Positions 16,785 to 63,223 of a stretch of DNA of 64,000 nt are shown piece by piece (the first letter of the stretch is position 1; every line of letters starts with the position of its first letter). Below the pieces are notes generated by a model. That model saw only the letters and a program-made list of their open reading frames with translations. It was not told the origin of the DNA and ran no database searches. The stretch lies in contig OZ025260.1 in NCBI GenBank assembly GCA_964019135.1, forward strand, positions 27,770,254-27,834,253, in the 5' to 3' direction. Position numbers and translations under genes: made by a program. Origin of the DNA: Arenicola marina (Eukaryota > Annelida > Polychaeta > Arenicolidae).

Positions 16785-18660
16785 GGTAAGAAGGACCGTC
16801 CGTCGTACTCTTGTGTAAGTGATAGGTCCACACGGGCACAAAAGGCGTCCTCCACCAGACGTCGCCGTGAGGTCAATCTCCCTCAACCTAAACGTTTTGA
16901 TCTTTATTTCATATGCAAACAGCGCTCGAGAGAGAAACGCGGTATGAATTGGACATGGCCGCTTCCTGTGTGATAGTGTATTTGCAGTTATGCCGCATGA
17001 AATTGATCTTGAGCACATGTTGTAAGTGACCCCTGTGTGACCCTGGCCATGTTCGTTGCAGGAGAGTGCTGGCGTCCGATAGAATATTGCTCCACTGGGT
17101 CGTGCTGAGGGGCGGACCATTCGAATTTCGTTCAAATGGAACCAAGGACTTTTTTGGGGCTGATAGGAGAGACAGATTTACTTGACAATGTATAGGCAAA
17201 ATGATACTGATGCAAATTTTAAGGCGCTATTGTGCTGTCACATATCATAGAAATTTGATAATTTAAACAAAATCAGGTTCTATAGTAAATACGTGATATT
17301 TCAAGAGAAAGGTTTGATGGCTGCAATGTAGTCGTGAACTGCTTGGAATGTACAACGGTTGTCGTCAATTGAAAGGGATGGATTACCAATAAAGGGTACG
17401 ACTTCAGGTTGAACATGCCAATAAAATGTCGCATCTAGATGTTCCGATTAAGCGGCAAGTACTGTTGGCGCCTCTGTCTCCCTGAAGTTATTCTGCTGAG
17501 ACTAGATTGTTGGGCGGCATCATAATGCCAGGTATCCGGAACGGTGCGCTACTGTCTACTGCTGGTTGTAAAGACAGTATGTACCTTGTTCAGCTGCGCG
17601 CGCCACCTTGTGGGAGAATGATATGATGGATGGCTGTGGAGCCAGGAGCCAGGAGTCTCGGGATAAAGCCGGACGCCGGACGCCGGCGGCGGGGGCCAAG
17701 GGGGCGACAGCCGTGTCCGGACGCCTCTCCCTGCCTAGTTATCGGGGGATGCGCCCAACCCTGCCCCGCGCGCCTCGCCCCCGGGGCCCCGCCCGCCAGC
17801 CGGGCGCCCCCGGGGCATAATCTGAAGGCCTCACTACCTACCCACCCCACCTCCTCTCCCTTCATTGCCCTCTTTATCCGATGACCCTTGTTTCTCTGCA
17901 CCTGCGTGAATCCTGCCCCCACCCGCCCCCTCCCTCCCCCCCCCGTCGGTAACCAAGGCTTTCTGGTATGTCATGTCCGATGGGGTTCGCCAACCACGCG
18001 GCGTTTTACGGCACCATACATAAGCCTATGACTGGCCCTCGCCTGTCTTGACCCCTCACCCGCCTCCCCTCCGCCCCTCACCCCCCCCCCCCTCCGCGAA
18101 TCCCCCCCCCCCCGCACTCCCTTTCCGACCAACCAGAGCGCAGGCCGCTTGGGGAGCCACCATATGCTCAGACCTCGTCATCAAGACTGCTCACGCCATC
18201 TGCTGGGAGATTAACGACATTTTGATCGACTGGCGGGCTCTTCACACGGGGGTGATGACTCCACCGCAAGGTGTCGCCCGCCCCTTTCGGGCCGATCCCA
18301 GCTTGGTGAGGGAGGGGAAGGGGGTAGATCTAAGGGAGCATCACCCTTAGGCTACTAGTATATATTTACAGTGAGCGGTGGTACCGACAGTACGGAATGG
18401 TTACTGCCCAGTCTGCGAAATAAAAATTGGTGTAACACGTGCAACAAACGGCCAGTCCGCCCACTTACTGTGTCAGCTGGGATGCGCCTCTTCAAAGCAG
18501 CAACGAAAATATCTTCCTTTAAAAATAAATCGATTATTTAAGTAACTGCTGGATGTAAGCTTGTCGCATTGGTGAACTTAGCTGAACAGACTTTTCTGAC
18601 ATAGAATCAAGGTCGTGGAAATGCAATCCGGGGAGTTATCCCCCTTTACTGACGATTTCA
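16785..18660. other. No gene detected; CpG-rich patch at 17660-17820
   Basis: The flank of the satellite is unique-looking. The 17660-17820 interval is strongly G+C- and CpG-rich, followed by C-runs at 17920-17945 and 18070-18120. No open frame has a recognisable domain or convincing splice structure. Confidence 0.45.
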
Positions 18661-26812: not shown

Positions 26813-27444
26813 TAGAGCGGATGTTGGTGGGAGGAGAGGGAGAGCTTTCTCAGAGAAAGCCGCCTCCCCTCCCACAGTCGCCAGCCTTAATCCACCACAA
26901 GTGCACCCCCCCCCCCTTACCACCCCCGGTTTTCACAATCCTCGATCCCGCCCTTGGTCTGCTGAATTACTGTCTTGTTCAAACCTTCTTGCGGGATGTG
27001 AAATGCTGTAAAAAGTCAATTTTCAACATTTATCAAAATCGATTCCTATTCACATATATAATTCACGAACAGTTGTTTCACAAGCGTTTGTTTCTCTTCC
27101 CGAATCTCTACCTTATAACCTGTTGTGGAAGAGAGGCGTATTGAAACAGTAAAAAGAATTTTTCCGAGAATCTGCTCCGCTTCTTCAGAACTCCCCACAG
27201 GGCCCTGGAGCTACGTCTCTATAGCTTTCTTCAATACGTCCACTGCAGTGCGGTCTGCCAACAGCTTTATTTCTATTTAACGGTTTCATCGCTGGGGGCA
27301 TACGCCCCTGTGGATTGTCATATGGTATGACGGGTACAGCGGTAAACCAGAAGAAATTGCTACAGATTTCTTCTGAAAGCCAATTCATTCCCGAAACTTC
27401 CGTGCGCGATTAATACCAAGATCACTCGGCTACAGCTGATGCAC
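26813..27444. other. No gene detected
   Basis: Unique-looking spacer between two arrays, with a C-homopolymer near 26904-26915. No supported coding or RNA feature. Confidence 0.45.
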
Positions 27445-29990
27445 CTGTGGCTGTGGTGGTGGGGTGCCCCCTCTCCCTCCCCTCCCCCTTTGCGTTTCTG
27501 GATGAAGGGGTGGGTGTGGGGTGCCCCCTCTCCCTCCCCTCCCCCTTTGCGTTTCTGGATGAAGGGGTGGGTGTGGGGTGCCCCCTCTCCCTCCCCTCCC
27601 CCTTTGCGTTTCTGGATGAAGGGGTGGGTGTGGTGGTAGGGTGTCCGACCCCAACCCCCTATGTGTTTCTGGATGAAGGGGTGGGTGTGGTGGTAGGGTG
27701 TCCGACCCCAACCCCCTATGTGATTCTGGATGAAGGGGTGGGTGTGGGGTGTCTGAACCCCCTCTCCTCCCCCTTGTGTTTCTGGACCCAGGGGTGGGTG
27801 TGGTGGTAGGGTCTCCGACCCCAACATCCTATGTGTTTCTGGATGAAGGGGTGGGTGTGGGGTAGTCTGAACCCCCTCTCCTCCCCCTTGTGTTTCTGGA
27901 CCCAGGGGTGGGTGTGGTGGTAGGGTCTCCGACCCCAACCTCCTATGTGTTTCTGGATGAAGGGGTGGGTGTGGGGTAGTCTGAACCCCCTCTCCTCCCC
28001 CTTGTGTTTCTGGACGCAGGGGTGGGTGTGGTGGTAGGGTCTCCGACCCCAACCCCCATGTGTTTCTGGATGGAGGGGTGGGTGTGGGGTAGTCTGAACC
28101 CCCTCTCCTCCCCCTTGTGTTTCTGGACGCAGGGGTGGGTGTGGTGGTAGGGTCTCCGACCCCAACCCCCATGTGTTTCTGGATGAAGGGGTGGGTGTGG
28201 GGTAGTCTGAACCCCCTCTCCTCCCCCTTGTGTTTCTGGACCCAGGGGTGGGTGTGGTGGTAGGGTGTCCGACCCCAACCCCCTATGTGTTTCTGGATGG
28301 AGGGGTGGGTGTGGGGTAGTCTGAACCCCCTCTCCTCCCCCTTGTGTTTCTGGACGCAGGGGTGGGTGTGGTGGTAGGGTCTCCGACCCCAACCTCCTAT
28401 GTGTTTCTGGATGAAGGGGTGGGTGTGGGGTAGTCTGAACCCCCTCTCCTCCCCCTTGTGTTTCTGGACGCAGGGGTGGGTGTGGTGGTAGGGTCTCCGA
28501 CCCCAACCCCCATGTGTTTCTGGATGGAGGGGTGGGTGTGGGGTAGTCTGAACCCCCTCTCCTCCCCCTTGTGTTTCTGGACGCAGGGGTGGGTGTGGTG
28601 GTAGGGTCTCCGACCCCAACCTCCTATGTGTTTCTGGATGAAGGGGTGGGTGTGGGGTAGTCTGAACCCCCTCTCCTCCCCCTTGTGTTTCTGGACGCAG
28701 GGGTGGGTGTGGTGGTAGGGTCTCCGACCCCAACCCCCATGTGTTTCTGGATGGAGGGGTGGGTGTGGGGTAGTCTGAACCCCCTCTCCTCCCCCTTGTG
28801 TTTCTGGACCCAGGGGTGGGTGTGGTGGTAGGGTGTCCGACCCCAACCCCCTATGTGTTTCTGGATGGAGGGGTGGGTGTGGGGTAGTCTGAACCCCCTC
28901 TCCTCCCCCTTGTGTTTCTGGACGCAGGGGTGGGTGTGGTGGTAGGGTCTCCGACCCCAACCTCCTATGTGTTTCTGGATGAAGGGGTGGGTGTGGGGTA
29001 GTCTGAACCCCCTCTCCTCCCCCTTGTGTTTCTGGACGCAGGGGTGGGTGTGGTGGTAGGGTCTCCGACCCCAACCCCCATGTGTTTCTGGATGGAGGGG
29101 TGGGTGTGGGGTAGTCTGAACCCCCTCTCCTCCCCCTTGTGTTTCTGGACCCAGGGGTGGGTGTGGTGGTAGGGTGTCCGACCCCAACCCCCTATGTGTT
29201 TCTGGATGGAGGGGTGGGTGTGGGGTAGTCTGAACCCCCTCTCCTCCCCCTTGTGTTTCTGGACGCAGGGGTGGGTGTGGTGGTAGGGTCTCCGACCCCA
29301 ACCCCCATGTGTTTCTGGATGGAGGGGTGGGTGCGGGGTAGTCTGAACCCCCTCTCCTCCCCCTTGTGTTTCTGGACCCAGGGGTGGGTGTGGTGGTAGG
29401 GTGTCCGACCCCAACCCCCTATGTGTTTCTGGATGGAGGGGTGGGTGTGGGGTAGTCTGAACCCCCTCTCCTCCCCCTTGTGTTTCTGGAAGCAGGGGTG
29501 GGTGTGGTGGTAGGGTGTCCGACCCCAACCCACTATGTGTTTCTGGATGAAGGGGTGGGTGTGGGGTAGTCTGAACCCCCTCTCCTCCCCCTTGTGTTTC
29601 TGGACGCAGGGGTGGGTGTGGTGGTAGGGTGTCCGACCCCCACCCCCTGTGTTTCTGGATGGAGGGGTGGGTGTGGGGTGTCTAACCCCCTCTCCTCCCC
29701 CTTGTGTTTCTGGACGCAGGGGTGGGTGTGGTGGTAGGGTGTCCGACCCCCACCCCCTTGTGTTTCTAGATGGAGGGGTGGGTGTGGGGTGTCTGACCCC
29801 CCTCCCCCTTTGTGTTTATGGGCGCCTGTGTGGGTGTATTGGTGGGGTATCCGTAGCCCCCCCCCCTCCCCTTGTCTTTCTGGACGCAGGGGTGAGTGTG
29901 GTGTTAGGGTGTCCGAGCCCCCGACCCCCTTGTGTTTGTGGACGCAGGGGTGGGTGTGGTCGTAGGGTATCAGTAGCCCCCCTCCCCCCT
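27445..29990. repeat. About 114-bp tandem array with five-unit higher-order period
   Basis: Each unit of 113-114 bp pairs two related halves, both starting TGTGTTTCTGGA and containing AGGGGTGGGTGTGG. One half ends in a TCTGAACCCCC and CTCTCCTCCCCC tract, the other in a GTAGGGTSTCCGACCCCAAC tract. A recognisable unit variant recurs at intervals alternating 341 and 227 bp (minus-strand frames opening at 28165, 28506, 28733, 29074 and 29301). This gives a 568-bp, five-unit higher-order repeat. Both array edges, 27445-27720 and 29650-29990, are more diverged. Minus-strand frames up to 457 codons (Pro/His/Thr/Gly) are by-products. Confidence 0.95.
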
Positions 29991-30770
29991 TGTATCCCTG
30001 GGTGCCCATACTACCAAAGATATTATGTACTAATATCTTGGATACTACTGATGCAATGATGCTACAAACTGCCATGTTGGACACGTGACACTTGAAACTG
30101 ACGTCATCGCTGCCCGATGGCCGACAAAGAGGCTGTTGAGACCACTGTTTGCCCCCAGGCACCTCCACATACCGCGTTTTATAGGGGCGCGGCTCCACGG
30201 ATATGTCAGTCCACAAGTGACTGGCTGATACGATTAATTCCCAACTTCGAAGAAGATATGAAAGGAAAGTTGGAAGAAATTTAGCCCCGAATTCCGATAT
30301 GTAATGCCTCGACAAACACAATTATTGGAATTGATATTAAAACTTGAGGTAAAGCCATTGGGAACAGGTTTTTCTGGCCTAAATACGATTGTTCTAGTGA
30401 GTGTACTACTTACTCCTATACTCTTGTAGAATCGTTAAATACTAAATAGTTCGACGGTCTACTACTCTTGTTTTACGACAATTTTGGAATGGAGGGGAAT
30501 CAGTGTTGTGAAAACACCGGTAGAAACGAGATAAGTGACGTACCAACTGGTGAATGGTGACCGAATTCCTGGGTTTATGGCATCACCTCACTAGGAATAC
30601 TGCCAATTTAGATAGTGACATCGATTTGCAAGTCGTTACAATCAACAACGATTCCATATGGTCGCTTGACTGGATATCGTAAATACCGGCAGAATTGTGT
30701 CTGCGAGGTTCTTGCTGACTTCACGACGGACCATTCTGACGGACGCTACTCCTTCGTTTACTTTACTTCA
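29991..30770. other. No gene detected
   Basis: Unique-looking sequence between repeats. One CRE-like TGACGTCA octamer lies near 30099. No domain-bearing open frame. Confidence 0.45.
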
Positions 30771-35512: not shown

Positions 35513-36477
35513 TTTGAAAAGGAGTAGGCGGGGTTTGGGGGGGGTGCACATTGGGTTTCGAAAGCTTACGACTAGGGGGGGGGGCGGAGGGGCTCCACTT
35601 CGAAAAAAAATATGGGGTATACAAGGAAATATGGGGGGTCCAGCGCAAAAAAACAGGGGGGTCGGGTCCACAGATGGCATACAGTTACCATTGAAGAAAA
35701 AAGCAAATCCTCTCAGGCACCCTAGATACCCCCCCCCCCCGCCCTCCCTGGATCTACGCCTGGATTCGCGTAAAGAACCGGGATGCGTTCGGGATTGAGC
35801 GTTAATCTGCCTGGATCCCGCTGGGCTGGCGGCGGCTTGCACCATGTACCCCGGCGTAATGTCATCTGGATTGGGATTCCCTGCTGCCAGCGGGGAGAGG
35901 CGAGGCGAGGGGAGGGGGCGGCGGGGCGTCGTACCACTCATAAAACAGGATGGTTGCGAGTCCTGCCGGCTGCTCGCTGTGCCTGGATCATTTCTCACCT
36001 ATCACTGCCACTCACCGATCAGACTCCTCTTCATAGACTGTGGGAGGGGGGGGGGCCCTAGGGGTCTGGGCTCGCGTGCCCCACACACGTGACTGTGTAA
36101 TTGATGGGCGAGACACGCTTGAAGAGGACTTTTCGGTCTGGTGTGTCTAGTGTCTCTTTATCACCTAAATACAAAAACAGACTCTCACACTCCGAGAAAA
36201 CTCTTCGAGATGATTCTTTGTGACCCGCAGTTGCAACCGTCGTTCAAGATATAATCTTAAGCATCTGCTGAGCGATATTATAGAGACTGGTATAGGAGCT
36301 ATGCTGTTGTAAGATGAGGCAGAAGTGTCAGGCGAGCAAAAACAAATGTTCTTAAGATCTCTCCGATGTTTGACCTCGATCGCTCGTTATCGGGATATTT
36401 ACCTAACACTGTGGGTCTTTCATTCCGCGCAGGAAGTGATCTAGTGATCCTTTCCAAAGGCAGGGCCTCCGAAACCG

Positions 36478-37075
36478 ATACCGACACCGAGATCGAGAAC
36501 GAGACCTGGGCCCCGAGACCGAGACCGAGAACGAGACCTGGGATCCGAGACCGAGACCGAGAACGAGACCTGGGCTCCGAGACCGAGACCTGGGCTCCGA
36601 AAACGAGACCGAGAACAAGACCTGGGCTCCGAGACCGAGACCGAGAACGAGACCTGGGCTCCGAAACCGAGACCGAGAACGAGACCTGGGCTCCGAGACC
36701 GAGACCGAGAACAAGACCTGGGCTCCGAAACCGAGACCGAGAACGAGACCTGGGCTCCGAGACCGAGACCTGGGCTCCGAAAACGAGACCGAGAACAAGA
36801 CCTGGGCTCCGAGACCGAGACCGAGAACGAGACCTGGGCTCCGAAACCGAGACCGAGAACGAGACCTGGGCTCCGAGACCGAGACCGAGAACGAGACCTG
36901 GACTCCGAGACCCAGACCCCGGCTCCGAGACCCAGACCCGGGCTCCGAGACCGAGACCCGGACTCCGAGACCGAGACCCGGGCTCCGAGACCCTGGATTC
37001 TGAGACCCGGGATTCTGAGACCCGGGGTTCTGAGACCGGTCTGGACTCTGAGACCCGGGTTCCGAGACGCGGGTT
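36478..37075. repeat. CGAGAC-based hexamer array 1
   Basis: Composite array of GACCGAGACCGAGAACGAGA followed by CCTGGGCTCCGA, with a 3' portion of simpler GACCCGGGCTCCGA units. A block of about 180 bp is itself repeated (compare about 36565-36745 with 36745-36925). Open frames on both strands are alternating Arg/Ser/Pro/Glu repeats and are not credible genes. Confidence 0.95.
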
Positions 37076-37078
37076 TCT

Positions 37079-37460
37079 GAGATCCGGGCTCCTGGAACGC
37101 ACGAACGTGTCACTTTATGTAAAACAAAATTAGTAATCATCCATTGAAAGTGTTCATATTTACTTGTTATATACATTTACATTTTATTTTATTTTTTATT
37201 TCATTAACTTGGCCTACACGGCACAGAACACGTTTACCAGTAAGCCTACATGCCCCTAGTGAGCCTTGTATGCGGTTTTACCTTCTCTACCTTTTCACCC
37301 TAATAATGGTATGAAATGGTATCCTTGTTATGCAGGAGGACGTTATGACTTATAATATTTTTATTCACTGGCCTTGAGGCATACAGGAGTTTTTGAACGT
37401 ACGTATATATACAGCTTGCATCACCATCTACTTGACTCGACCTTTCAGGTTACACACCAA
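37079..37460. repeat. Duplicated flank, copy 1
   Basis: Sequence after array 1 (CTCCTGGAACGCACGAACGT, then ATCATCCATT, AGCCTACATGC, GTGAGCCTT and TGAACGTACGTATA) matches in order the sequence after array 2 at 39871-40405. Array and flank therefore duplicated together, and the two copies then diverged. Confidence 0.85.
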
Positions 37461-37989
37461 TAGGTCGTGCGTAGAAAAGTATATGGTGTGATGTAGTGCC
37501 TAAACTATGGTCGTATATCAGGGTTATGTGGTAACTAATTATTTCTGTCTTGGCAGATATTGTTTCTTTTACTAATGTTTGGCCAGAATAATGCATGTTC
37601 AATCAATCTGTGACGTATTTAATCATGCATGCGGATGTTACGGGTGCGTGGTTCGGTCGACCTCATCACATGCTGATTCGCAGGGTCTCATTTTCGGCAG
37701 GTTGCGCTAGGGGGGGGGGGGGGGAGTGTCATACTATGGGTTGTAGCAAAAAATATCGTGCGTCAACCTATGTTTTGCTTGTTTTTAAAATAAAGTTGGA
37801 TAATTGCTCCATAATTTCCTATGGCCCACAAAAATGGGTACCGATTTTTCTTATTGGTTTCTATTGGTGTGTAACCTTCAGAAGTCAGGGGCCGCGAGAA
37901 GCGGCGGGTTGAAGTGTTCTTTTGCTGAAGCAGTGAAGGGGTGCGTCATGATGCCAGTCGATGTGTGAATTTGTTGCGCAAAGGAATTG

Positions 37990-39870
37990 AAATGCTTGTC
38001 CGAAAAACCGGAGAAACGCACCCTGGCTCCGAGATATCGCGACCAGAGCTCCGAGATCGCGACCGAGACCGAGACCGAGACCTCGGGATCGCGACCAGAG
38101 CTCCGAGCTCCGAGACCGAGACCGAGACCTCGGGATCGCGACCAGAGCTCCGAGCTCCGAGACCGAGACCGAGACCGAGACCTCGGGATCGCGACCAGAG
38201 CTCCGAGCTCCGAGACCGAGACCGAGACCTCGGGATCGCGACCAGAGCTCCGAGCTCCGAGACCGAGACCGATACCGAGACCCGAGCTCCGAGACCGCGA
38301 CCCGGGCTCCGAGACGGAGACCCGGACTCCGAGATCGCGACCAGAGCTCCGAGCTCCGAGACTGAGACCGAGACCGAGACCGAGACCGAGACCCGGACTC
38401 CGAGACCCGAGCTCCGAGACAAAGACCCGGGCTCCGAGACCGAGACCGAGACCGAGACCCGGACTCTGAGACCAAGACCCGGACTCCGAGACCAAGACCC
38501 GGACTCCGAGACCAAGACCCGGGCTCCGAGACCAAGACCCGGACCCCGAGCTCCGAGACCAAGACCCGGGCTCCGAGACCGAGACCGAGACAGGGACCCG
38601 GACTCTGAGACCAAGACCCGGGCTTCGAGACCCGAGCTCCGAGACCGAGACCCGGGCTTCGAGACCCGGGCTCCGAGACGGAGACCCGGACTCCGAGATC
38701 GCGACCAGAGCTCCGAGCTCCGAGACTGAGACCGAGACCGAGACCCGGACTCCGAGACCCGAGCTCCGAGACAAAGACCCGGGCTCCGAGACCGAGACCG
38801 AGACCCGGACTCTGAGACCAAGACCCGGACTCCGAGACCAAGACCCGGACTCCGAGACCAAGACCCGGGCTCCGAGACCAAGACCCGGACCCCGAGCTCC
38901 GAGACCAAGGCCCGGGCTCCGAGACCGAGGCCGAGACAGGGACCCGGACTCTGAGACCAAGACCCGGGCTCCGAGACCCGGGCTCCGAGACCCGGGCTCC
39001 GAGACCGAGACCCGGGCTTCGAGACCCGAGCTCCGAGACCGTGACCGGGGCTCCGAGACCGTGACCCGGGCTTCGAGACCCGGGCTCCGAGACCCAAGCT
39101 CCGAGACCGAGACCCGGGCTCCGAGACCGCGACCCGGACCCTGAGACCCGGGCTCTGAGACCGCGACCCGCGGTCCGAGACCGCGACCCGGACTCCGAGA
39201 CCCGGGCTCCGAAACCGCGACCCGGGCTCCGAGACCGAGACCCGGGCTCCGAGACCAAGACCCGGACTCCGAGACCAAGACCCGGGCTCCGAGACCAAGA
39301 CCCGGACCCTAAGACCCGGGCTCCGAGACCGAGACCCGGGCTCCGAGACCCCGACCCGGACTCCGAGACCAAGACCCGGGCTCCGAGACCAAGACCCGGA
39401 CCCCGAGCTCCGAGACCGAGACCCGGGCTCCGAGACCGAGACCGAGACAGGGACCCGGACTCTGAGACCAAGACCCGGGCTCCGAGACCCGGGCTCCGAG
39501 ACCCGGGCTCCGAGACCCGGGCTCCGAGACCGAGACCCGGGCTTCGAGACCCTAGCTCCGAGACCGTGACCCGGGCTCCGAGACCGAGACCTGGGCTTCG
39601 AGACCCGAGCTCCGAGACCGAGACCGAGACCGAGACCCGGGCTCCGAGACCGAGACCCGGGCTCCAAGACCCGGGCTCCGAAACCGCGACCCGGGCTCCG
39701 AGACCGAGACCCGGGCTCCGAGACCGCGACCCGGACTCCGAGACCCGGGCTCCGAAACCGCGAACCGGGCTCCGAGACCGAGACCCGGGCTCCGAGACCC
39801 GGGCTCCGAGACCGCGACCCGGGCTCCGAGACCCGGGCTCCGAGACCGCGACCCGGGCTCCGAAACCCGG
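37990..39870. repeat. CGAGAC-based hexamer array 2
   Basis: About 1.9 kb of GAGACCGAGACCCGGGCTCC units with variants GATCGCGACCAGAGCTCCGA on the left side and GAGACCAAGACCCGGACTCC in the middle. Blocks of several hundred base pairs recur (compare 38330-38640 with 38700-38990). Giant minus-strand frames of up to 666 codons are repeat shadows. Confidence 0.95.
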
Positions 39871-40405
39871 TCTCCTGGAATGCACGAAAGTATCACTTCA
39901 TGTAAGACCAAATTAACGTTAGTAGTTTGCACAATGAAATCATCCATTCAAAGAAATGTTCTTTTTACATGCACGGTTTCGAAAAAAGTTAGCTAACAAT
40001 GAAAGAATTTGTTTAGGTAAAACATTTTTACCAGTAGGCCTACATGCAAATCCCAAGTGAGCCTTCTGTGTGCGGTTCCTTACTTTGTTTCGAAACTGTA
40101 ATGGTATCATTGCTACGCAGGGGCACGTTTAGCCCTGAAACATGACTCTCTAGGCACGCTCGGTAAACCGGTTTACTGAGCGAGAGGCATGTTTCAGGGC
40201 TCGGCCACGTTATGACTTTTCACTTCGGACTGCGGTTTGGTTCTTGGGTTTTAAGAGAAATTCCTCAGTTCGATATAAATGGATCCTCAGTTCACACTTC
40301 AATCTATTTTTGTTCACGTTGACATTGAGGAATCCAGGATTTTTTTGAACGTACGAAGGTATACAGCTTGCATCACCGTCTACTTGGCGCGAACGTTCAG
40401 AAGTC
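39871..40405. repeat. Duplicated flank, copy 2
   Basis: Paralogous counterpart of 37079-37460 (CTCCTGGAATGCACGAAAGT, AATCATCCATTC, GGCCTACATGC, AAGTGAGCCTT, TGAACGTACGAAGG, ACAGCTTGCATCACCGTCTA). This copy additionally holds a 71-bp hairpin at 40131-40201. Confidence 0.85.
40131..40201. other. Nested inverted repeat (71-bp hairpin)
   Basis: Outer arms AGCCCTGAAACATG and CATGTTTCAGGGCT are perfectly complementary. Inside lies a second dyad, GCTCGGTAAACC and GGTTTACTGAGC, with one mismatch and no loop. It could be a small foldback element or a cruciform-forming site. No coding potential. Confidence 0.75.
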
Positions 40406-48488: not shown

Positions 48489-48534
48489 CTTTCATGGTTT
48501 ATTCCCGATGGGAATATTTTTTTTTCCTTGTGAC

Positions 48535-48662
48535 ATGATCAATATACAGGCCATGTATCTGGCCTGCCGTACAAGTAACAGCCTCACGACTTCTTGTCGC
48601 AATGTTATAACCTTTGGCCCGCCGGCTGAATGTGGCATGTCAGCAAGACCACGTGGAATTAC
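48535..48662 (+). repeat. Dispersed repeat B, copy 1
   Basis: About 125 bp (ATGATCAATATACAGGCCAT, GTCGCAATGTTATAACCTTT, GGCATGTCAGCAAGACCACG) recurs as a close reverse complement at 55452-55582. It contains the near-palindrome GGCCCGCCGGCTGAATG. Class unknown. Confidence 0.85.
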
Positions 48663-49095: not shown

Positions 49096-49296
49096 ATGGC
49101 GGAATCGTATACATTTGGTCACTGGGGATCCACCAGTGAGGAAATGCTAAAATCTCATTTCCCGTTGCACCTTGCTTGCCGAGATGGGGATGTCGATTCG
49201 CTCTCTTTGTTGTTACGACAAGCACAGCATGGAATATACACTGAAGACAGTTTCTATGGGTGGACGCCTGCTCACTGGGCTGCGTATTTTGGACGA
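49096..49296 (+). CDS. ANKRD10: ANKRD10 exon 1
   Basis: 67 codons starting in AAACATGG (good Kozak context) with TAA at 49090. It covers ankyrin repeat 1 and the first helix of repeat 2 (EDSFYGWTPAHWAAYFGR). The donor CGA|GTAAGT is strong, phase 0. Confidence 0.93.
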
Positions 49297-52200: not shown

Positions 52201-55200
52201 AGGGAACCGCCCCCCACACACACCGGCACACCATCCCACATCAGACTTGTATTATAATATGCCCGCTGCCCCCCCCTCCCCCCCCCCCCTCTGGGTGGCC
52301 AACCACAATACGAGAATGACTGTGTCTACGCCCACATTCTCATCTTGAAGGTACATATCGGTCAACAACACGAGAACAAATACCTAACTAAATCCAGCTA
52401 GTTTGACTTATGCTCAACAATGTCACTGATCACGAAAAACACGCCCAATGCCGAGACAATGCCCCGACTGGCCCCAACCCGAAATACGCGCCTGCGCACT
52501 GGAAGGGGTGATTCGGCTTATTGGCGGCTGAGTAGCGTGCTTACCCTTTGCCGTCATCATTTTGTCACCATTTGCTTGGACAACGCGAACGCCGAGTAAA
52601 TTCCGTGTGGTTGTATATTCAGGACACTTTAACCACTTTTGGTCATATCGCGTTAGTGGGAGAAGGAAGGGAAAGAGGAGCCATGTCCCCGGGGGTAACC
52701 CCTACTCTTTGCGAAGAAGAACATGGTAACTTTATCCTGCGACCACACAGACATGGCCACAGCGGAGCTCGAACCATCGATCCATGTGCCATTAGCATGG
52801 TTGGGCTCTGAGGTGACCAGAAAGCTGAATGCCTGCGCTCTAACCCACTGAGCTACCGGGCCGGCCCTCATTCCGTGTGGAAACAGAAATAACCGAACAT
52901 GAATTATTCAGAAAATAACTAGAAGTACGAGTAAGCTACGTCACCTTCGAAAATGTTGAGGGTGTGTTCAGCCTTGGGATTTCCTTGTGCCAATGACAGC
53001 CACATCACTGCGGGCATTCAATTCAGCGAAATCGTGTTTTGATCGTTGATTGAAAATCAGGCCATTTTTTTCGCCACTGTGGCGATACCCATGGACCAAT
53101 CTTGCGCCACATACAGTTTGCTTTCGCCATTGGCGATGTGGCGAACGGCTAGCGCGCGCCCAGCTTAGTAAAATGTAATAAAATGATTGCATCTCGTACA
53201 CATATATTTAATTGACTTTTTGTACCAAATTTATATGTATCCAGACTTTGGCATGTGATAGTTAATAATCTCTTTGGTAGATCTCTATAACTAGAAATTA
53301 TAATACAGATTATAATTGTCCTGGCTTCCCTCGCTTGATCAGTTTAGCCTTCATGTTATAATGTTGCATTCGGCTCTGTTAAGGAAGGCCAGAATGTACA
53401 GGGAATTTACTCTGGGCTGTGAGTTTGGGAATAGTTGAATGATACTTTCATTACTAATCAGTATTATAGTATTATATACTTTATACTATACAAATTTTTA
53501 TTTTTTGTTCTAGTTGAATTGCCTTATGAAGCTGCAGGCGGAAAATACAAATAATGACTATTCAACTATCCGTCTGAACCAAACACCACTACATATTGCT
53601 GCATTTGGTGGACAAGGCCACTGCGTCAAATGGCTTTTACATTGTGGATCAGCTATAGACAGACAGGTAAAGAAATCCAAGGCTTTTCACCTGCTATCTA
53701 TATCTATTTTTCATTGCAGTTGGCTTGTTTGAGGAAGTTGATGCAATGGACACGTGTGGGTGTCAATTGTGACATTAAAAGCTCCAGGTTTCACCAAACA
53801 CCAGCTCATTTAGCCGCTTTTGGTGGGCATCCCCAATGCCTCCAGTGGCTGCTCCAGTCTGGGGCTTCTGTGTGTTCTCAGGTAAAGATGATGTAAACAT
53901 TAAACATGCTAACATATGCTGGTTGTCCTAGCAGTAAATTTGCAGGGACATCTTAGAACCAGTCTTAATGTTTCATGTTTTTGTTGTCAACATACTTTTT
54001 ATCTGCCATATATTCTCTCCTAGACATCCAGACATTCTATATTTCCTGTAATATTATATTCCAATAATATTAGGCCAAAAGCCACACCATGTCCATGGAT
54101 TCCTGTCTTGCTACATGCTCATCTACATTTTGTCTGTAATATCCAGGCCATTGTATCTTGTTGAGAGATTTATTCATAAGATGGTGTCATACTGCCTGCC
54201 AAGGTGTCAATGAAACCTACAGATCAGGCCCAAAATATGCGGGTGCTGAATATTTATGATCTGACTTTTATAGCTTTGGCAGGGTGCATGACAGTAAGGG
54301 TATACTATTGCTAAAAGGTCTTCAGATACAAGTTACATTTACATTTTTTAGTACCTGTTTTGTTGATCATAAAATTGTCTAAGCATGTTCGGAAACACTC
54401 CTATTTATTGGTAAATATCCTATAACTAACCTATGATTTGTCCTATAAACTAAAACTTGCTGCAAGATATGTGATGCTAACAGGGGAAAAGTTCTTGGGC
54501 CACAACTGTTATTCTGGTTGTAGATGTAGTTTTAGCTTTACTCTTTTTCTGGTTTGTAGGACTATCTTGGTGAAACTCCAGTGCATAAGGCTGGCCGTAC
54601 AGGCAGTATGGAGTGTTCCAGCCTGCTCACGTTACATGGGGCCCGTTTGTTGTAAGTATGACTTAATCTTGGTCATTCTCCCATCATTAAATAAGAATAT
54701 ATTTCCTCTTATTTGCCTAACAAATGTTTTCTCTGCTATTGTTCCATATAGCCTAAATTTCATGTTTACTGCTGAAGATTATTTGCCATTGCTACAAAAC
54801 AAAATTTGTTCATTGCAAAGACAATATGCTCCCTCCTGCCCCTTTTTAGACTAAGCTTTTGCTTTATAATCGTGAAGATGAAATAGATTTCTTACATACT
54901 AAACAATAAATACTGTGCATTGGTTACCAAGCAACAAAAGGGAAGGCATCCCTATATATGGAAGGAAAGGTCACTTTCCTGTGTAACGATAGAAAGATCA
55001 AAATGCAGTATTGTTTTCAAAATGAATATAGATTAGATGAGGCTATTTAACAACAAGTTTTAAAGGAGCTTACTGTTACAAAAAATCCCCACTTGGTTAG
55101 AGTTTTCTAAAATGCAACAAATGGCCTGACAAGATGCTGTGAAGAGTTAACCAGTGAAGAAGCCATCCTCCCTGATCTTCACTGTTGTTACCAGGACAAA

Positions 55201-58200
55201 TCCTGTATAAAGGCCCTGCGTGTGGAACCTGGACATTGTGGACCGCATGGCGGTATCCCGTCCTGTTTAACAGTGCCTAACCCCATCTGTCCTCGGCCTT
55301 GTGGTTTCTATGGGCGTGGCTACCATTGGACCATGTGGCCATGCTTTGTTTGTTCCGGCGCGCCGTTCTCGTCGAGCAACCTTTGTGCGCTCTCAGGTTC
55401 ACGGCGCGTTCACGGCGCGACCCACAGCGGCCACATACCACGTATGACACTCGAGCCACGTGGTCTTGCTGACATGCCACATTCAGCCGGCGGGCCGAAG
55501 GTTATAACATTGCGACAAGTCGTGAGGGTGTTACTTGCACGGCAGGCCAGATACATGGCCTGTATATTGATCATGTCACAGTGAAATGAAAGAAGGAACA
55601 GTAAGGATCGCCGAATTGCAACAAAAGCCAAAAAAGAATTGAGATTGAAGTGCCGCGGGTGGGGGCTTACTCTAACCTCTGCCCAAATGTCACCTTACCC
55701 CTTCTTGTTTTGACCAACAACGATGACTTAGCCTAGTTGTCCCAAACAATTTTCTCTTAATTGTTAAGTCCCCGAACGTATACCCGAACCAGGCCTGCCT
55801 CAACATCGTTACCATAGCTCTGATAAAGCATGGAGAACAAGGGATGTATACCCAAACTTGGCCTGTCCCAACATCGTTACTATGGCTCGGATAGAGCATT
55901 GAGAACAAGGGATGTATACTCAAACTAGGCCTGTCCCATCATCGTTACTATAGCTCTGATAGAGCATGGAGAACAAGGGATGTATATCCAAACTAGGCCT
56001 GTCCCAACATCGTTACTATGGCTCGGATAGAGCATTGAGAACAAGGGATATATATCCAAACTAGGCCTGTCCCATCATCGTTACTATTACTCGGATAAAG
56101 CATTGAGAACAAGGGATGTATATCCAAACTAGGCCTGTCCCATCATCGTTACTATGGCTCGGATAGAGCATTGAGAACAAGGGATGTATATCCAAACTAG
56201 GCCTGTCCAATCATCGTTACTATAGCTCTGATAGAGCATGGAGAACAAGGGATGTATATCCAAACTAGGCCTGTCCCAACATCGTTACTATGGCTCGAAT
56301 AGAGCATTGAGAACAAGGGATGTACACTCGAACTAGGTCTGTCCCATCATCGTTACTATAGCTCTGATAAAGCATGTAGAACAAGGGATGTATACTTGAA
56401 CTAGGTCTGTCCCATCATCGTTACTATAGCTCTGATAGAGCATGTAGAACAAGGGATCTTTATCCAAACTAGGCCTGTCCCATCATCGTTACTATGGCTC
56501 TGATAGAGCATTGAGAATAAGGGATGTATATCCGAACAAGGCCTGTCCCAACATCGTTACTATAGCTCTGATAGAGCATGTAGAACAAGGGATGTATATC
56601 CAAACTAGGCCTGTCCCATCATCGTTGCTATAGCTCTGATAGAGCATGGAGAACAAGGGATGTATATCCAAACTAGGCCTGTCCCAACATCGTTACTATG
56701 GCTCGGATAGAGCATTGAGAACAAGGGATATATATCCAAACTAGGCCTGTCCCATCATCGTTACTATTACTCGGATAAAGCATTGAGAATAAGGGATGTA
56801 TATCCAAACTAGGCCTGTCCCATCATCGTTACTATGGCTCGGATAGAGCATTGAGAACAAGGGATGTATATCCAAACTAGGCCTGTCCCATCATCGTTAC
56901 TATAGCTCTGATAGAGCATGGAGAATAAGGGATGTATATCCAAACTAGGCCTGTCCCATCATCGTTACTATGGCTCGGATAGAGCATTGAGAACAAGGGA
57001 TGTATATCCAAACTAGGCCTGTCCCATCCTCGTTACTATAGCTCTGATAGCGCATTGAGAACAAGGGGGTGTGTATACCCGAACCAGGCCATGTACTAAC
57101 GTAACTGGTGGCAGTGGTAAGTAACACGCAGTAGAGACGCATATCTGCGTCAACACAGGTGTTTTGAACATGAATTGTCCACTATGTTGTTGTTTCCCTT
57201 CCCTCTGCCTCCTCCTCTCTCTGCGCAAATGGTCTTCCGGTTACTTATTTTGCTGATTACCGTATGTTCCTCAATATTCAAAACTGTATCCCTAGTTTCA
57301 GCGTTAATACCCCCTGCCCGGTACCCTACCCCTGCCCCGCGCCGCTACCCCTACCCCTGCCCGCTACCGTTACCTGCAATCCCTGCCGCTACCCTGCCCG
57401 CTTCCCCTGCCTGCTATCCCTGCCCTCTATCCCTGCCCGCTACCCCTACCCGCAATCCCTGCTGCTACCCTGCCCGCTTCCCCTGCCTGCTATCCCTGCC
57501 CGCTATCCGTGCCTAAAATCCCGCCCGATACCCTGCCCCTTGCCTACCCCTACCCCTTCCGCTACCGCTACCAGAATCCCAGCCCACTATTCCTGCTGGC
57601 TATCCCTGACCCTACCCCTGACCCTACCCCTGCCCACTATCCCTGCCCGCTGCCCGCTATCCCAGCCCCCTCCCGCTGCCCTCTATCCTTGCCCGCTACC
57701 CCAGCCCCCTCCCGCTGCCCACAATCCCTGCCCGCTGCCCGCTATCCCTGCCCGCTACCCCAGCCCCCTCCCGCTGCCCGCTATCCTAGCCCCCTCCTGC
57801 TGCCCCTGGATCGCTTGGCCGGCATTTGACGGCCTTGTTTACCTACTGGCGATCGTTGATGCCAGGTGGTGATTCATTCCTTGCTAGGCGCCCAGCCCCC
57901 CGCCCCTCCGCCCCCGCCCCTCCGCCCCCGCCCCTCCCCCAGTCTTGGCACGGAGACGAGCCAGACCCAAGGTGAGTTCCCCTCGCCGACGAGAATGCCA
58001 GGCCACGAGAGCCCGGGCGGTGTGGTGTGTCGGTGTGGTGCTCGCCCCGGCCACAGGGAGGGTTGCATGGTGGTGTGTACCTGTTTGGATATAACCCACC
58101 GGAGACAATGACGTGTAGACACCATGATGCGCTGCGCGTTGCCCGCTGTTAACAGGTTAAGCGCGACGATTCCGGACCCTCAGTCGGTGGCTTCGATTGA

Positions 58201-61200
58201 CGCTGACGTCACTCACGTCGCCGTCGCGTGACGCCCGACACGCGCGGTGCGTCTCGAGGCGAGTCATTATCTCATCCGCCCTTCAAGCAGGAAGCTAGCA
58301 GTAATTTGTTGTGTTGTATAGGTACCTGGCTGTGTCACTGGGCGAGTAACCCACGTGAACCGCCTCCGCCTAGCTGGCGGGCTATACCGGCCTCGTTTTA
58401 AGCGTTTTTTACGAGTGCCGACGAGTTGGCTGCCGACCCGCTGGCCCGATATATTTATAATAGAACCTACCAACAGACTGTCTGTCTGTCTGACTCAGTG
58501 ACTGCTTTTTATGTAGCCCACTCCAGTGCTTATTGCCACAATATCGTCTGATCTCGTTGCCACTGCTTGCTTGGGAGTTCAGGGAATTCAGTCTGACCGG
58601 ATCTTTCTTTAATTTGAGTATCGCACTGTTGTGTTCAGGTTTGGGAAGAGACACTGGCGCTAGCGAACGTAATGTCGTTTACCTGTGTGTTTGTTTGTTT
58701 CCTGATGTGTGTATGCATATGTGGTGAACATATCCACTTCCTAGATTGCGGAACTGTCCTTTAGGGGCACATCTCACTGCCTGCTGTTGTTCATCACCCC
58801 TAGGGGGGCCGGCCCGATAGTTCAGTGGGCTAGAGAGCTGACATTCAGCGCTCTGGCCACCTGAGAGCCTAACGGCACGTGGATCGGTGGTTCGAGCCCC
58901 GCTGTGGTCATGTCTGTGATCTCCAGATAAAGATCCCATGTCTTTCTTCGCAAAGAGTAGAGGGTTACCCCCGGGGACATGGCTCCACTGGCTCTTCCTT
59001 CTCCCATTGACGCGATATGACCAAAAGAGGTTAAAACGTCTTGAATATACAACCAGCCCGTCATCACCCTAGATTGACATTTGTGTCCTTAATTAGTCGC
59101 CAGTATGTGCCGTGTCTCATCTGTCTCTATTTTAAACTATCGAAGCGACACCATAGACTCTTACTACTTCACAGTTTTGTGTGACAATGTGTACCATGGC
59201 TATATGATTTCATGGTGTCGTATCGATGTATTAATACTGTATGAACAACTTTAAATACCCACAGTTTGGATTTAAATTTGAGTCTTTCTCCCGTGTTACA
59301 GCATCAGAAACAACAACGGTATGACGTCTGCCGAAGTGGCCGCGTCCTGCGGACATGCCGAGGCCGCTAAGTACCTGGCGGAGGCGGAACGGCGTCAGGA
59401 GTCACACCCCAAGGGGGTGTACGGCACCGACCCCTTCGCCGCCACGCCACCTCTCAACAGACACGTGTCACCTCAAGACGTCACTGTCGGCAACGGTCAA
59501 GGCGACGCGCCGGCGCCGGTGGACCCGTGCGTCATCAACCAGGGACTGAACGGCGGTAAACTGCCGCCTCCATCGCCGGCGACCCTGGCCGCCAATAAAC
59601 TTCAGACCATTCCAGAATCGTTGGCGTCGAACCCGTGCTTCGGCGTAGCCAACGGTCACCGTGGCGACTGCGCGATGGAGGAGGAGGAAGACACTGAAGG
59701 GGCGGGGGCGCTGGGTGGGGGTGGGGGTGGGGGCGCCGCGGGGGACGCTGGGTGTAATGGACACGGACCGACCAATGGGGACATCACTCTCCATAGAGGC
59801 GTCTCGGCCAATCAGGTGCCCGTGGCAGGCGTCAAACGGTGCCGAGAAGACGACGACGAGGAACTTTACAAGAGAGCCAGGACAGGTTAGTAGCGACCCC
59901 TATGTTTTGGAGAATCTGGGGCTGGCCTCTGACGATCGTTATCTTCGGTCTCTCGTACCACATGTGCCTTATTCTTTTGTGATGGTCCATGTGCGATTGT
60001 GAATACCTGTATCTGTTTGAACAAAACACGGGCGCGGTCTGATCCAATGCTGTTCCTATTCTGCCATTACCGTGGTAATTTGTACTTATTGTGAGTCTTT
60101 TGAATATTGTATTTTATTGCCGCCTTTGTTCCTAAGCCGCTACTTCTTTCGTCATTCTAACTCTTCGTCTGTGCAACTTTCAGTGTCTCTTCTGTCTCTC
60201 TTTCTGTAAAGTAACATTGTTGACCATCACGGACCGTTTTCCTTCTCGTCTCGTAAAGCCATGTACATGATTCCCTGGCACTTTCCTGCTTGACCTTAAC
60301 TTACTGCCATGTTAATGCAAGATCCGTAACTAGTGGACACATGTGTAAGAAAAAAAACCCGAATCGTTACATTTGTTTTTGGTTAACTGTGAAACGCTAA
60401 ATTGCTTTCGTTCGTTTTTCTCCCACCGTCTGCGAACGTCTTACGCACAGCCACCATTTAACGTAAAAACTGTCGCGGCCAGCACTCTGGATCAATTACC
60501 GTGTCACCATCTTTGCGAGTCCCTAACAAATGCAACCGGTGGGCTGGTAATAGTATTCGGATATTAAATGCAAAATCGCTTTGCATTACGCCTTCAGCTC
60601 AAAAGCGTTGATAGAGGTTTAATTAAAAAAATTAAGTTTTAACGCTTCAAAAGCAGTCTACTGTATACGGGCCTGCTTCAAGTGTAACTTGAGTAATGTA
60701 TACATAGAAACAGAGTACATATTTGCAACCAAAACTCATTCACTGTCCTTTTATGTTCTCACTCCTGCCTGGCGAATCTTGTCACATCTATTTTAATGGC
60801 ATGCGAAAGGACGGGTTGACATTGCTGTTGTTACTTGTAGACTGGACATAATATATATATATATATATCAACACTGCCAGTAATCGAATTTCCCATTTCT
60901 TGCAGGCCGTAACATCTTTCAATAGCGATCATTGGTCAGCCCCTCCACGATTACTTTTATTTCAGAGTGTGTATCAAGTGCTTCAAATGACAACAACTTG
61001 AGATGCAATTCGTTACAGTTTCTCAGTTGAAGAGTGCACCAATTATTTGGTTCTGCATTGTAGCCATCGGCCAACCATTCTTTACTCTAGTTTCACTATC
61101 TCATTTCATATTCGGATTGACCAAGTCGTTGATACAATGTCTGTAACAGAGCTGTGACATGAGGCCGTTCTCACTATTCTTGTCCTTTCTAGATCAGTGG

Positions 61201-63223
61201 GACGATGGTGAATTAGCTTCTCCTCTAGCCTTCGACTCCTCCACCTCCACTCCTCCTGTTCCTATGGAGACAGTAACTATGGACACCATGTGGCCTAGTC
61301 CTCACCAAGGCGACCATGGTGTGACCGGTCAGCCTGTCGCAATAGCGCCACCAGAGGACGTTGATTGCGTCACATTCGGCCACGGGCTGCCGTACCAACA
61401 AGTGTTAGCCCTCTCCACCGAGCCCATGAAACCGGTCCGTACGGCCTGCTACCCCGCGTCCTACTCCGAGGAGGACTGCGAACATTATAGATACTTGGCT
61501 TTTGTTGTGTGAGGAGGAACAGTGCCCCTGGAGATGGAGGGAGATGGAGTCTCTTCAGCCAAGGTATTCAAGGTTTTTGAATCATCTCAGTACTTAACCC
61601 CCGAGAGCCGGTGTGCGCTTGTCAGTGAAGTGAACTTTAACCCACCTAAGGAATGAAGCCACGAGGTATATATAATGGCGTTGTACAGTGGCAAAGGGGA
61701 TGATTACTTACTCTGAATCGTGGCATGAAGCGAAGTGTATTATCCCCCCCCCCCCCCAGCCGCCCCCTGCTGTATTTCTTGGTTTGCTCAGGGTGATAGG
61801 GTTTCTGCTGGAATCTGTTGCGTATTGTTGAGTCTGGCTAGGTCTGTTCTGTGATGTGTTGGTATTTTTGTGACAGCTTCCAAGCAATTGGCCGGGAGAC
61901 CTGTGCAGATTCCTTGGCTCTTTGCTCTGTGCGCTTTTGAATCCGGAAACTCTTACAGAGCATAGCATGTTTATTACTCGTTTGTGATGTCGACCCGAAC
62001 ACTTACTCAAATCCTTCGTTTCTAAGTATAGTGCATAGTTTTTTGTAACATGACGCGAAATGTTGCCTTGCTATAGTAAGGATTCCGCTGGGCGTGTCTG
62101 GGTACTACACATGAATACTGCACCTTTTGTTCTGGGGTCGCTTTTCGTAGCTTGATTTTCCCTATGTTGCCTATCTGGGAATTTCTGGGAATTTTGTTCC
62201 ACAACATTTGATAAGGTAACCCGTTCCCATGGTTCTTTCCGTAATGTTTAATCCTTTTGTCCAGGTCTTGGTTTAATTGATCTTCCTCTAGCTGCTCATC
62301 CGCATTTTAGTAACTTGTGTTAATTAAGCCCGATAACTATATTAATAATCTTTTCTGTTGTACATTAGTGCTTTGACGTGATGTATTTGGACTTCGGCGC
62401 ATGGTTTCATTACTGTCTTTCCAAAATATTTTCGTTTGGCAGATGCAAGTGATGTTTATATTACGGTTACGGCACTCGTCTTCTTCTATATTCTGCTCTT
62501 GTTTCATGCACCAGTGTAAGAATGAGATGTTAGGCCGAGATAGTGATGACGCCTACGCAGGGTCCTGTCTGTTTGATGTGTATTCCATACGGGACGTAGT
62601 TTGGATTATATATTATTTATTTTAATTACGCAGTGCATCATGGTTGCTGATTAAATAAATGTATATGCTACAGGCTTAATTAAAGTTCGTGTTTCGCTGG
62701 GTTGAGCTTGCCTGTACATAAGTCCTTTCCTGGCCTCCTGATGTCATTTCGCCAGGTTGTTATATAGCCTCTCCATATATATAATGACCCATAGTGTGTG
62801 TAGGGTTAATACATATCTTCTGTTATTGTAGCTCAGCCATTCGTGAATAACTCTCCATTACACTGCAGCCGCTTTTTTGGGGGGAGGGGGGGTGGGGATT
62901 TTCTTTTGCTCCTTCTCTGCGTTGTTTCCTCCTTTGACGCCTTCCCCAGATCACTATGCTTACCACGTGCTTGCCACGTGCTTTTTGTGTCCTTAGTGAC
63001 GCCGGCTGATCACGTGACGGCGGCCGCCGCCTTTGAGGGGGGTCCCGTCGTAACGCCACGCCGCCACGACCTGGAGGGTCTGGAGTACGACTACAACGGG
63101 ATCCCGCTTAACGGTGCCAAGGAGAACACTGATCCCAACCCCGTTATGGAGGCCATGGCCCTGGAGTGCGAGGCCAGCCACCCGCCCGTCAAGTGTGTCG
63201 GGCTGGCCGGCCACTATATATGA
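49096..63223 (+). CDS. ANKRD10: Ankyrin repeat domain protein 10 orthologue
   Basis: Exons: 49096-49296, 53514-53666 (2a), 53720-53881 (2b), 54560-54651, 59302-59885, 61193-61508 and, less surely, 62950-63223. With one of 2a/2b the product is 539 or 542 residues; I recall the human protein as about 420. The N-terminus FPLHLACRDGD and SFYGWTPAHWAAYFG, the [15 protein letters not shown] segment, GETPVHKAGRTGSMEC, and the RKRC-like VKRCREDDDEELYKRARTG motif all correspond in order to vertebrate ANKRD10. It contains roughly four ankyrin repeats followed by a low-complexity C-terminal half. The molecular function of the family is poorly known; ankyrin repeats mediate protein binding. An in-frame TAA two codons before the ATG fixes the start. 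Confidence 0.9.
49890..49990 (-). repeat. Inverted copy of the AACAAGAGGACCCCCCATGA repeat
   Basis: The reverse complement contains TATTATAGATATAAACAAGA and GGACCCCCCAACCCCTCCCATGATTCAAGTGCCTGTG in two adjacent blocks. It pairs with 50238-50315 to form a large imperfect inverted repeat around a spacer of about 250 bp, inside ANKRD10 intron 1. Confidence 0.75.
50274..50597 (+). repeat. 161-bp tandem duplication
   Basis: Two units, 50274-50434 and 50435-about 50597, both start ATAGATATAAACAAGAGGAC and contain ATAAAGCTGCTCATACAATT and TCTGACTGTGTGAATGTTAA. They differ at a handful of positions. The unit's beginning is the sequence inverted at 49890-49990. The flank further right (50755-50850) matches a repeat at 9780-9890. 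Confidence 0.9.
51124..51190. repeat. Dispersed relative of the 8596-8712 repeat
   Basis: GCGGACATTTCTGATGAAAAAG followed within 50 bp by CTTGCGATCGGGGGGGGTGA corresponds to CGGACATTTATGATGAAAAA and GATTGCGACCGGGCCGGG near 8670-8730, in the same orientation. Confidence 0.65.
51191..52611. other. ANKRD10 intron 1, no further feature
   Basis: Apart from C-runs near 51312-51326 and 52264-52288 I see no gene, RNA or tandem repeat here. Confidence 0.5.
52612..52867 (-). mobile_element. tRNA-derived SINE, copy 2
   Basis: Minus-strand head GGCCGGCCCGGTAGCTCAGT continuing GGGTTAGAGCGCAGG (A-box region), with GGTTCGAGCTCC as B box, then the shared body. It is the least decayed head of the three copies and carries an extra segment, AACCATGCTAATGGCAC, between the boxes relative to copies 1 and 3. 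Confidence 0.88.
53514..53666 (+). CDS. ANKRD10: ANKRD10 exon 2a (duplicated ankyrin exon)
   Basis: Acceptor TTTTTTGTTCTAG|TTG, donor AGACAG|GTAAAG, 51 codons, phases 0/0. It encodes LNCLMKLQ at the start, NQTPLHIAAFGGQGHCVKWL in the middle and GSAIDRQ at the end. It is homologous to exon 2b and to the single corresponding segment of vertebrate ANKRD10. It begins at the second helix of an ankyrin repeat, so it completes the repeat started in exon 1. Confidence 0.9.
53720..53881 (+). CDS. ANKRD10: ANKRD10 exon 2b (duplicated ankyrin exon)
   Basis: Acceptor TTTTTCATTGCAG|TTG, donor TCTCAG|GTAAAG, 54 codons, phases 0/0. It encodes LACLRKL at the start and [20 protein letters not shown] in the middle, closer to the vertebrate HPQC form than exon 2a. 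The intron separating it from exon 2a is only 53 nt (53667-53719). Like 2a it begins mid-repeat at helix 2, so including both would leave a helix without its partner. Confidence 0.9.
54560..54651 (+). CDS. ANKRD10: ANKRD10 exon 3
   Basis: Acceptor TCTGGTTTGTAG|GAC, donor TTGTT|GTAAGT, 92 nt, entering in phase 0 and leaving two bases. It encodes DYLGETPVHKAGRTGSMECS and LLTLHGARL, the next ankyrin repeat. Confidence 0.9.
54652..55451. other. Start of ANKRD10 intron 3
   Basis: AT-rich intronic sequence followed by a more G+C-rich stretch at 55200-55450. No independent gene supported. Confidence 0.5.
55452..55582 (-). repeat. Dispersed repeat B, copy 2
   Basis: Reverse complement of 48535-48662 (CCACGTGGTCTTGCTGACAT; CAGCCGGCGGGCCGAAGGTT; GGCCTGTATATTGATCATGT) with few differences, so one copy is a recent insertion. 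Confidence 0.85.
55780..57085. repeat. 68-bp satellite array in ANKRD10 intron
   Basis: About 19 units of about 68 bp containing ACTAGGCCTGTCCCATCATC, GTTACTATAGCTCTGATAGA and GAACAAGGGATGTATATCCA. A run of units with the rare variant TTACTATTACTCGGATAAAG occurs near 56080 and again near 56760, an offset of about 680 bp (ten units). This points to a higher-order duplication. Confidence 0.95.
57300..57800. repeat. CCCTGCCCGCTA-type pyrimidine-rich repeat
   Basis: Degenerate C-rich units (TACCCCTGCCC, CTATCCCTGCCCGC) with 41-50-bp block repeats, for example CCAGCCCCCTCCCGCTGCCC four times at about 57663-57800. The open frames are Pro/Leu-rich repeat shadows. Confidence 0.9.
58204..58211. promoter_or_regulatory. 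CRE octamer in a CpG-rich intronic segment
   Basis: TGACGTCA lies in a CpG-dense stretch (58160-58265) about 1.1 kb upstream of ANKRD10 exon 4. This is a possible internal promoter or enhancer; the sequence alone shows only the motif and base composition. Confidence 0.35.
58807..59055 (+). mobile_element. tRNA-derived SINE, copy 3
   Basis: Head GGCCGGCCCGATAGTTCAGT continuing GGGCTAGAGAGC, B box GGTTCGAGCCC, body TCATGTCTGTGATCTCCAG, GGGTTACCCCCGGGGACATG, and tail GATATGACCAAAAGAGGTTA ending near ATATACAACC. It lies 250 bp before ANKRD10 exon 4. Confidence 0.88.
59302..59885 (+). CDS. ANKRD10: ANKRD10 exon 4
   Basis: Acceptor CGTGTTACAG|C supplies the base completing exon 3's split codon. 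The donor GACAG|GTTAGT leaves one base. It encodes the last ankyrin repeat (IRNNNGMTSAEVAASCGHAE), then a low-complexity linker with a GGGGGGG-type glycine run and an acidic EEEEDTEG patch, ending in VKRCREDDDEELYKRARTG. That last motif is the most conserved non-ankyrin element of the family and looks like a nuclear-localisation signal. Confidence 0.9.
60849..60869. repeat. (TA)n microsatellite
   Basis: About ten TA dinucleotides in the intron between ANKRD10 exons 4 and 5. A second short (TA)n lies within the C-terminal region at 63274-63286. Confidence 0.9.
61193..61508 (+). CDS. ANKRD10: ANKRD10 exon 5
   Basis: Acceptor TCCTTTCTAG|AT completes the codon left by exon 4. It encodes DQWDDGELASPLAFDSS, then MDTMWPSPHQGDHGV and a SYSEEDCEHYRYLAF end. 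I place the donor at TTGT|GTGAGG (61508), leaving two bases. Without splicing the frame terminates at TGA 61510. Acceptor and phase are good; the exact 3' end is less certain. Confidence 0.75.
61740..61757. repeat. Poly-C tract in ANKRD10 intron
   Basis: C-homopolymer preceding AGCCGCCCCC. The surrounding interval 61510-62949 holds no other feature I can support. Confidence 0.85.
62950..63223 (+). CDS. ANKRD10: ANKRD10 C-terminal exon (to first TGA)
   Basis: A long pyrimidine tract (TTTCCTCCTTTGACGCCTTC) precedes CCCCAG|A at 62949|62950, whose one-base overhang matches the two bases left by exon 5. A second AG at 62996 is also possible but would not match that donor. The frame encodes HVTAAAAFEGG, then LEGLEYDYNGIPLNGAKEN and ALECEASHPPVKCVGLAGHY before TGA at 63221. 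The same frame continues with protein-like sequence to TAG at 63377, interrupted only by another TGA at 63287. Confidence 0.6.

Follow-up and report, generated by a model that had tools for sequence, protein, structure and literature searches.

Predicted mutually exclusive ankyrin exons in a putative ANKRD10 orthologue of Arenicola marina

Two neighbouring exons, 2a and 2b, in a predicted ANKRD10 orthologue of Arenicola marina are homologous to one another, and we consider it probable that they form a tandem-duplicated, mutually exclusive pair in which exclusion is brought about by steric interference across the 53-nt intron that separates them. U1 bound at the 2a donor and U2 at a branch point in this intron could presumably not load together, in which case 2a would not be joined to 2b and each would be joined instead to exons 1 and 3. 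Either exon would complete ankyrin repeat 2 and provide repeat 3, and the main differences between the two proteins would fall in the repeat 2/3 finger and in the second helix of repeat 3, giving two versions of one binding surface. The spacing is proposed as the basis of exclusion only, not of the choice between the exons; exclusive use, tissue pattern and the partners of the two forms are what we infer. Exclusive exon pairs are a known kind of gene structure, and the pair in ANKRD10 would be an added case, predicted on good grounds. No report of such a pair in ANKRD10 was found in the titles and abstract openings of the matches listed for literature on this gene or on exclusive exons with ankyrin repeats.

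Gene model and homology of the two exons

The gene lies in a stretch of 64,000 nucleotides of contig OZ025260.1 (the window), in an 867-Mb assembly of 762 contigs (GCA_964019135.1). Its predicted features, in window coordinates, are as follows.

49096..49296, plus strand: exon 1, from the ATG to the donor CGA|GTAAGT; it stops after helix 1 of ankyrin repeat 2.
53514..53666, plus strand: exon 2a, 153 nt, 51 aa; helix 2 of repeat 2, the finger and repeat 3, with an open frame, an AG acceptor and the donor CAG|GTAAAG.
53667..53719, plus strand: intron between 2a and 2b, 53 nt.
53720..53881, plus strand: exon 2b, 162 nt, 54 aa; helix 2 of repeat 2, a finger longer by 3 residues and repeat 3, with an AG acceptor and the donor CAG|GTAAAG.
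53710..53750, plus strand: possible weak RNA hairpin over the 2b acceptor, -15 kcal/mol with a z of -2.15, matched by 7 of 200 shuffles.
54560..54651, plus strand: exon 3, repeat 4.
59302..59885, plus strand: exon 4, the remainder of the repeat 4 turn, then repeat 5 and the tail, which contains KRCRED...KRART.
61193..61512, plus strand: exon 5, up to and including the stop codon.

With a single exon at the second position, the predicted product has 449 aa (2a) or 452 aa (2b), with an ankyrin array at the N-terminus (Pfam match) followed by the tail KRCRED...KRART. The human protein has an N-terminal ankyrin array and a KR-rich tail, and we take the gene to be a putative ANKRD10 orthologue. Exons 2a and 2b each match the Pfam family Ank, with 29.2 and 30.0 bits against a cut-off of 21.1.

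The first-pass annotation had described 2a and 2b as homologous segments that start with LxCLxKL, share QTPxHxAAFGG and WLL and end in xQ, with 0/0 phases, CAG|GTAAAG donors and a spacing of 53 nt, and all of these features are present in the sequence, the donors being identical. Global alignment of the two translations (BLOSUM62) gave a score of 111 and 23 identities over 51 aligned residues; 5000 shuffles averaged -24.3 (sd 9.9) and reached 30 at best, and the similarity is not due to chance. Searched by tblastn over the whole window, each exon recovered the other (2a to 2b, E 9.6e-11; 2b to 2a, E 1.5e-10), the next-best place had an E of 0.09, and no third significant copy was found. Across the assembly, with 17 and 7 candidates scored, each exon matched only itself and its partner at E <= 0.001. 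Within the reach of this search, the pair thus seems to have arisen by local duplication and not by capture of an exon from a different ankyrin gene; the DNA and protein searches of the assembly, in which this locus alone matched, score the best candidates only, and a distant copy could escape them.

Exon 2a had also been called the more diverged of the two from the vertebrate gene, which presumably has one such segment. In sequence this stands, with 27 identities to the human segment for 2b and 22 for 2a. In length it does not: 2a has 51 residues, the length of the corresponding human segment, and it is 2b that carries three extra residues ahead of QTP.

Published criteria for homologous mutually exclusive exons, as set out in PMC3228551, allow a length difference of up to 20 aa, and the two exons here encode 51 and 54 aa. 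They also call for the same frame and compatible splice sites, which the pair has (phase 0/0, AG acceptors and identical donors), and for homology of at least 15%, for which we substituted the identity of 23/51 for the paper's own score. On the fly X chromosome, 6 of 1705 genes had neighbouring exons of this description that were not exclusive (PMC3228551), so the prior favours exclusion, although exceptions are most naturally expected among repeat proteins.

Several repeats were noted in and around the gene. Inverted copies of a dispersed repeat lie in intron 1 (52608-52747) and intron 3 (58915-59055), with overlapping stretches of 94 nt and 61 nt that are 89% and 79% complementary; if the two paired in the RNA, exons 2a, 2b and 3 would lie inside the loop, and their joint skipping or a circular RNA could be favoured. 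A second inverted pair is found upstream of exon 1 (48518-48656) and in intron 3 (55456-55591), with 75 nt at 92% and 64 nt at 98% complementarity, and intron 3 also holds a tandem array with a 68-nt period and 19 registers (55642-57168). Elsewhere in the window, long frames at 11785-16882, 27360-30321, 36299-37176 and 37878-39947 are open on both strands or in several frames and encode short peptide repeats such as PSPTVPITHCPH; they look like minisatellite arrays, not genes, and there is strong GC skew at 12001-16000. The assembly also includes mitochondrial COX1 (C762:7161-8501), open over 519 residues under the invertebrate mitochondrial code, with which its codon use fits: TGA must be read as Trp, and AAA, AGA and ATA fall at sites where Lys, Ser and Met are expected.

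Ankyrin register and the two predicted proteins

The exon 2 unit is not a whole number of repeats, since it runs from helix 2 of repeat 2 to a point past helix 2 of repeat 3. The spacing of helix-1 motifs is 35-34-33-33 with 2a, 35-37-33-33 with 2b, 35-34-54-33-33 with both exons and 35-16-33 with neither. The proposal that either exon alone gives a regular repeat stack and that both in series break it is borne out by these values, in which one exon gives 34 or 37 and then 33, and both give 54. The double form could be aligned with the ankyrin chain 4rlv_A only by leaving 21 residues unmatched at the 2a/2b join, and against 5y4d_A one match ended at residue 118 and the next began at 141 while the chain ran on almost unbroken; the 2b form aligned straight through. 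Pfam Ank_2 scores were 89.1 bits for the 2b form, 103.5 for the 2a form and 162.5 for the double form, to which Pfam gives no penalty because bits sum over repeats. AlphaFold2 models of the single exons, made without an alignment, were poor (mean pLDDT 57.1 for 2b and 45.5 for 2a, the latter with strands in place of the expected helices at this low confidence), and nothing was drawn from them.

With segment borders set by hand from the ankyrin pattern, residue identity between 2a and 2b is 5/7 for helix 2 of repeat 2, 3/15 for the finger that leads to repeat 3, 9/11 for QTPxHxAAFGG, 4/11 for the second helix of repeat 3 and 2/7 beyond that helix; their net charges are +1 (2a) and +4 (2b). The core thus appears to be kept while more exposed parts vary, as would be expected for two versions of one binding surface.

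Between the two exons dN was 0.53, below a dS of 1.24, which suggests that exon 2a is maintained, and identity by codon position was 51%, 67% and 53%. We also simulated drift with 2b as the ancestor and equal base changes, counting copies that kept an open frame and at least the observed identity to 2b. The figures are rough: 0.5% of 20,000 copies passed at 0.6 changes per site (about half of dS, as expected for the 2a branch had the two exons evolved equally), 0.005% of 20,000 at 0.8, and none of 20,000 at any of 1.0, 1.25, 1.5 or 2.0. The simulation leaves out changes in 2b, which makes it lenient towards neutrality. GC content is 0.42 in exon 2a and 0.51 in exon 2b.

The 53-nt intron and alternative explanations

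Two adenines in a full yUnAy context are present in the 53-nt intron, at +23 and +47 from the 2a donor, the second only 6 nt before the intron end. Among adenines that keep a distance of 13 nt or more from the acceptor, the last is at +40. Candidate branch points, as read from these letters, lie at +23 to +40, and there is no plausible one beyond about 40 nt. A donor-to-branch-point distance of less than 50 nt serves as the steric criterion for human exclusive exons, in which 57 of 629 clusters show it (PMC5740500), and the ANKRD10 pair falls below it, with a whole intron of 53 nt and predicted branch points at +23 to +40. About 90% of splicing was lost in human test genes when this distance fell below 47 nt (PMC11291888); both limits derive from human genes. 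Of conserved human introns of 37-65 nt, 22 were candidates and nine were shown to be spliced (PMC4463651), and a human 56-nt intron is spliced with SPF45 (PMC8363638), so joining of 2a to 2b is unlikely, not impossible.

The introns of this genome that we sampled, from CCT and kinesin genes, are much longer (n=58, minimum about 242 nt, median 575.5, none of 200 nt or less); they were taken as gaps between adjoining exon matches to profiles, and their lengths, estimated from profile edges, are good to some tens of bases. The sample used 47 of 49 CCT rows (an intronless gene accounts for the other two); of 133 kinesin rows it used 122 and left out 11 that were stop-bearing, bridged or isolated matches. 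Three introns bridged inside a match (about 219, 282 and 303 nt) turned up in the 27 rows checked of 32 that bore stops, and once these are added the shortest of 61 introns is about 219 nt. The earlier suggestion that 53 nt may be too short for efficient removal therefore agrees both with the published thresholds and with the 58 sampled introns. If the intron were retained, translation would stop after 139 residues.

Other possible bases of exclusion were considered. All four exon combinations are in frame (449 aa with 2a, 452 with 2b, 503 with both and 398 with neither), so decay of wrong products after a frame shift gives no safeguard, and frame-shift protection is ruled out, the exons being 153 and 162 nt long. 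Incompatibility of U2 and U12 sites was not found, the donors GTAAGT and GTAAAG having been judged by eye against the U12 consensus. Pairing of intronic sequences around the exons, which the first-pass annotation had proposed as a check, was not convincing: in a test of 21 exon and flank pairings two reached a z of about -2.5, both involving the 53-nt intron, whose partner was exon 2b in one and the 3' part of intron 2 in the other. The hairpin listed above pairs the 2b acceptor with the beginning of exon 2b, and its raw folding energy was equalled by 209 of 1834 windows of the same size.

Three other explanations have to be weighed against steric exclusion. Exon 2b could be constitutive and 2a a decaying or rarely used copy without a role in the protein, which would fit the closer resemblance of 2b to the human segment (27 against 22 identical residues) and the lower GC content of 2a. 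We think this unlikely, as 2a combines an open frame with splice sites at both ends, the ankyrin core residues and the vertebrate length, and its dN lies below dS; the drift simulation also disfavours neutrality, though at its mildest setting no more strongly than the 0.5% level. That 2a and 2b are spliced in series, yielding a longer ankyrin protein of 503 aa, strikes us as quite improbable. An exon that is not a whole number of repeats, a helix-1 spacing of 54 and 21 unmatched residues against 4rlv_A all argue against it, as does a 53-nt intron that is shorter than any intron sampled in this genome and under the donor-to-branch-point limits; yet the double form is in frame, exon duplication can enlarge repeat proteins, Pfam scores go up with both exons, and some human genes do splice ultra-short introns (PMC4463651).

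The exons might also be exclusive through competing RNA structures or a regulator and not through spacing. A hairpin that can hold the 2b acceptor and the two pairings of the 53-nt intron would suit such a model, but each of those pairings had 1 of 60 shuffles as good, which is near chance for 21 tests, and the 209 of 1834 windows noted above equal the hairpin in raw energy, and we regard this as the least probable of the explanations. Steric exclusion across the short intron is the reading that we prefer.

Known systems and significance

Alpha-tropomyosin has an exclusive exon pair that works by steric interference. In this and other such pairs the donor lies less than 50 nt from the branch point, as it does for the predicted branch points in ANKRD10 (criterion in PMC5740500), where the distance is set by the intron length itself. 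Exons 4a and 4b of vertebrate OGDH are likewise a tandem exclusive pair with a small intervening intron, the human branch points being 25-41 nt from the upstream donor and so under the steric limit; gene and domain are different, and transcripts and branch points were mapped there, whereas the ANKRD10 pair, with an intron of only 53 nt, is predicted from sequence (PMC7969005). The exclusive exons of muscle myosin, lophotrochozoans included, are also homologous and vary one part of a folded domain, but they belong to a motor domain and form larger and older clusters (PMC3912159). In human ANKRD10 itself, alternative splicing gives ANKRD10-1 and ANKRD10-2, of which one reportedly binds MYC whereas its counterpart does not; these are a longer and a shorter variant, and no duplicated exon is described in the passages on this splicing (PMC11882939) or in those of a second paper that mentions ANKRD10 splicing. 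From the human variants it follows only that splicing can be of consequence in ANKRD10.

A more far-reaching reading, which we offer tentatively and hold to be rather doubtful, is that ANKRD10 in this lineage is a spacing-enforced binary switch between two ankyrin fingers, and hence between two partner sets of a nuclear co-factor, where vertebrates have one. If the prediction is true, a spacing-enforced exclusive exon pair would be gained for an ankyrin-repeat gene, two binding surfaces within one protein would be available as a natural paired comparison, and the donor-to-branch-point limit would have a clean test in an animal in which all the other introns sampled are long.
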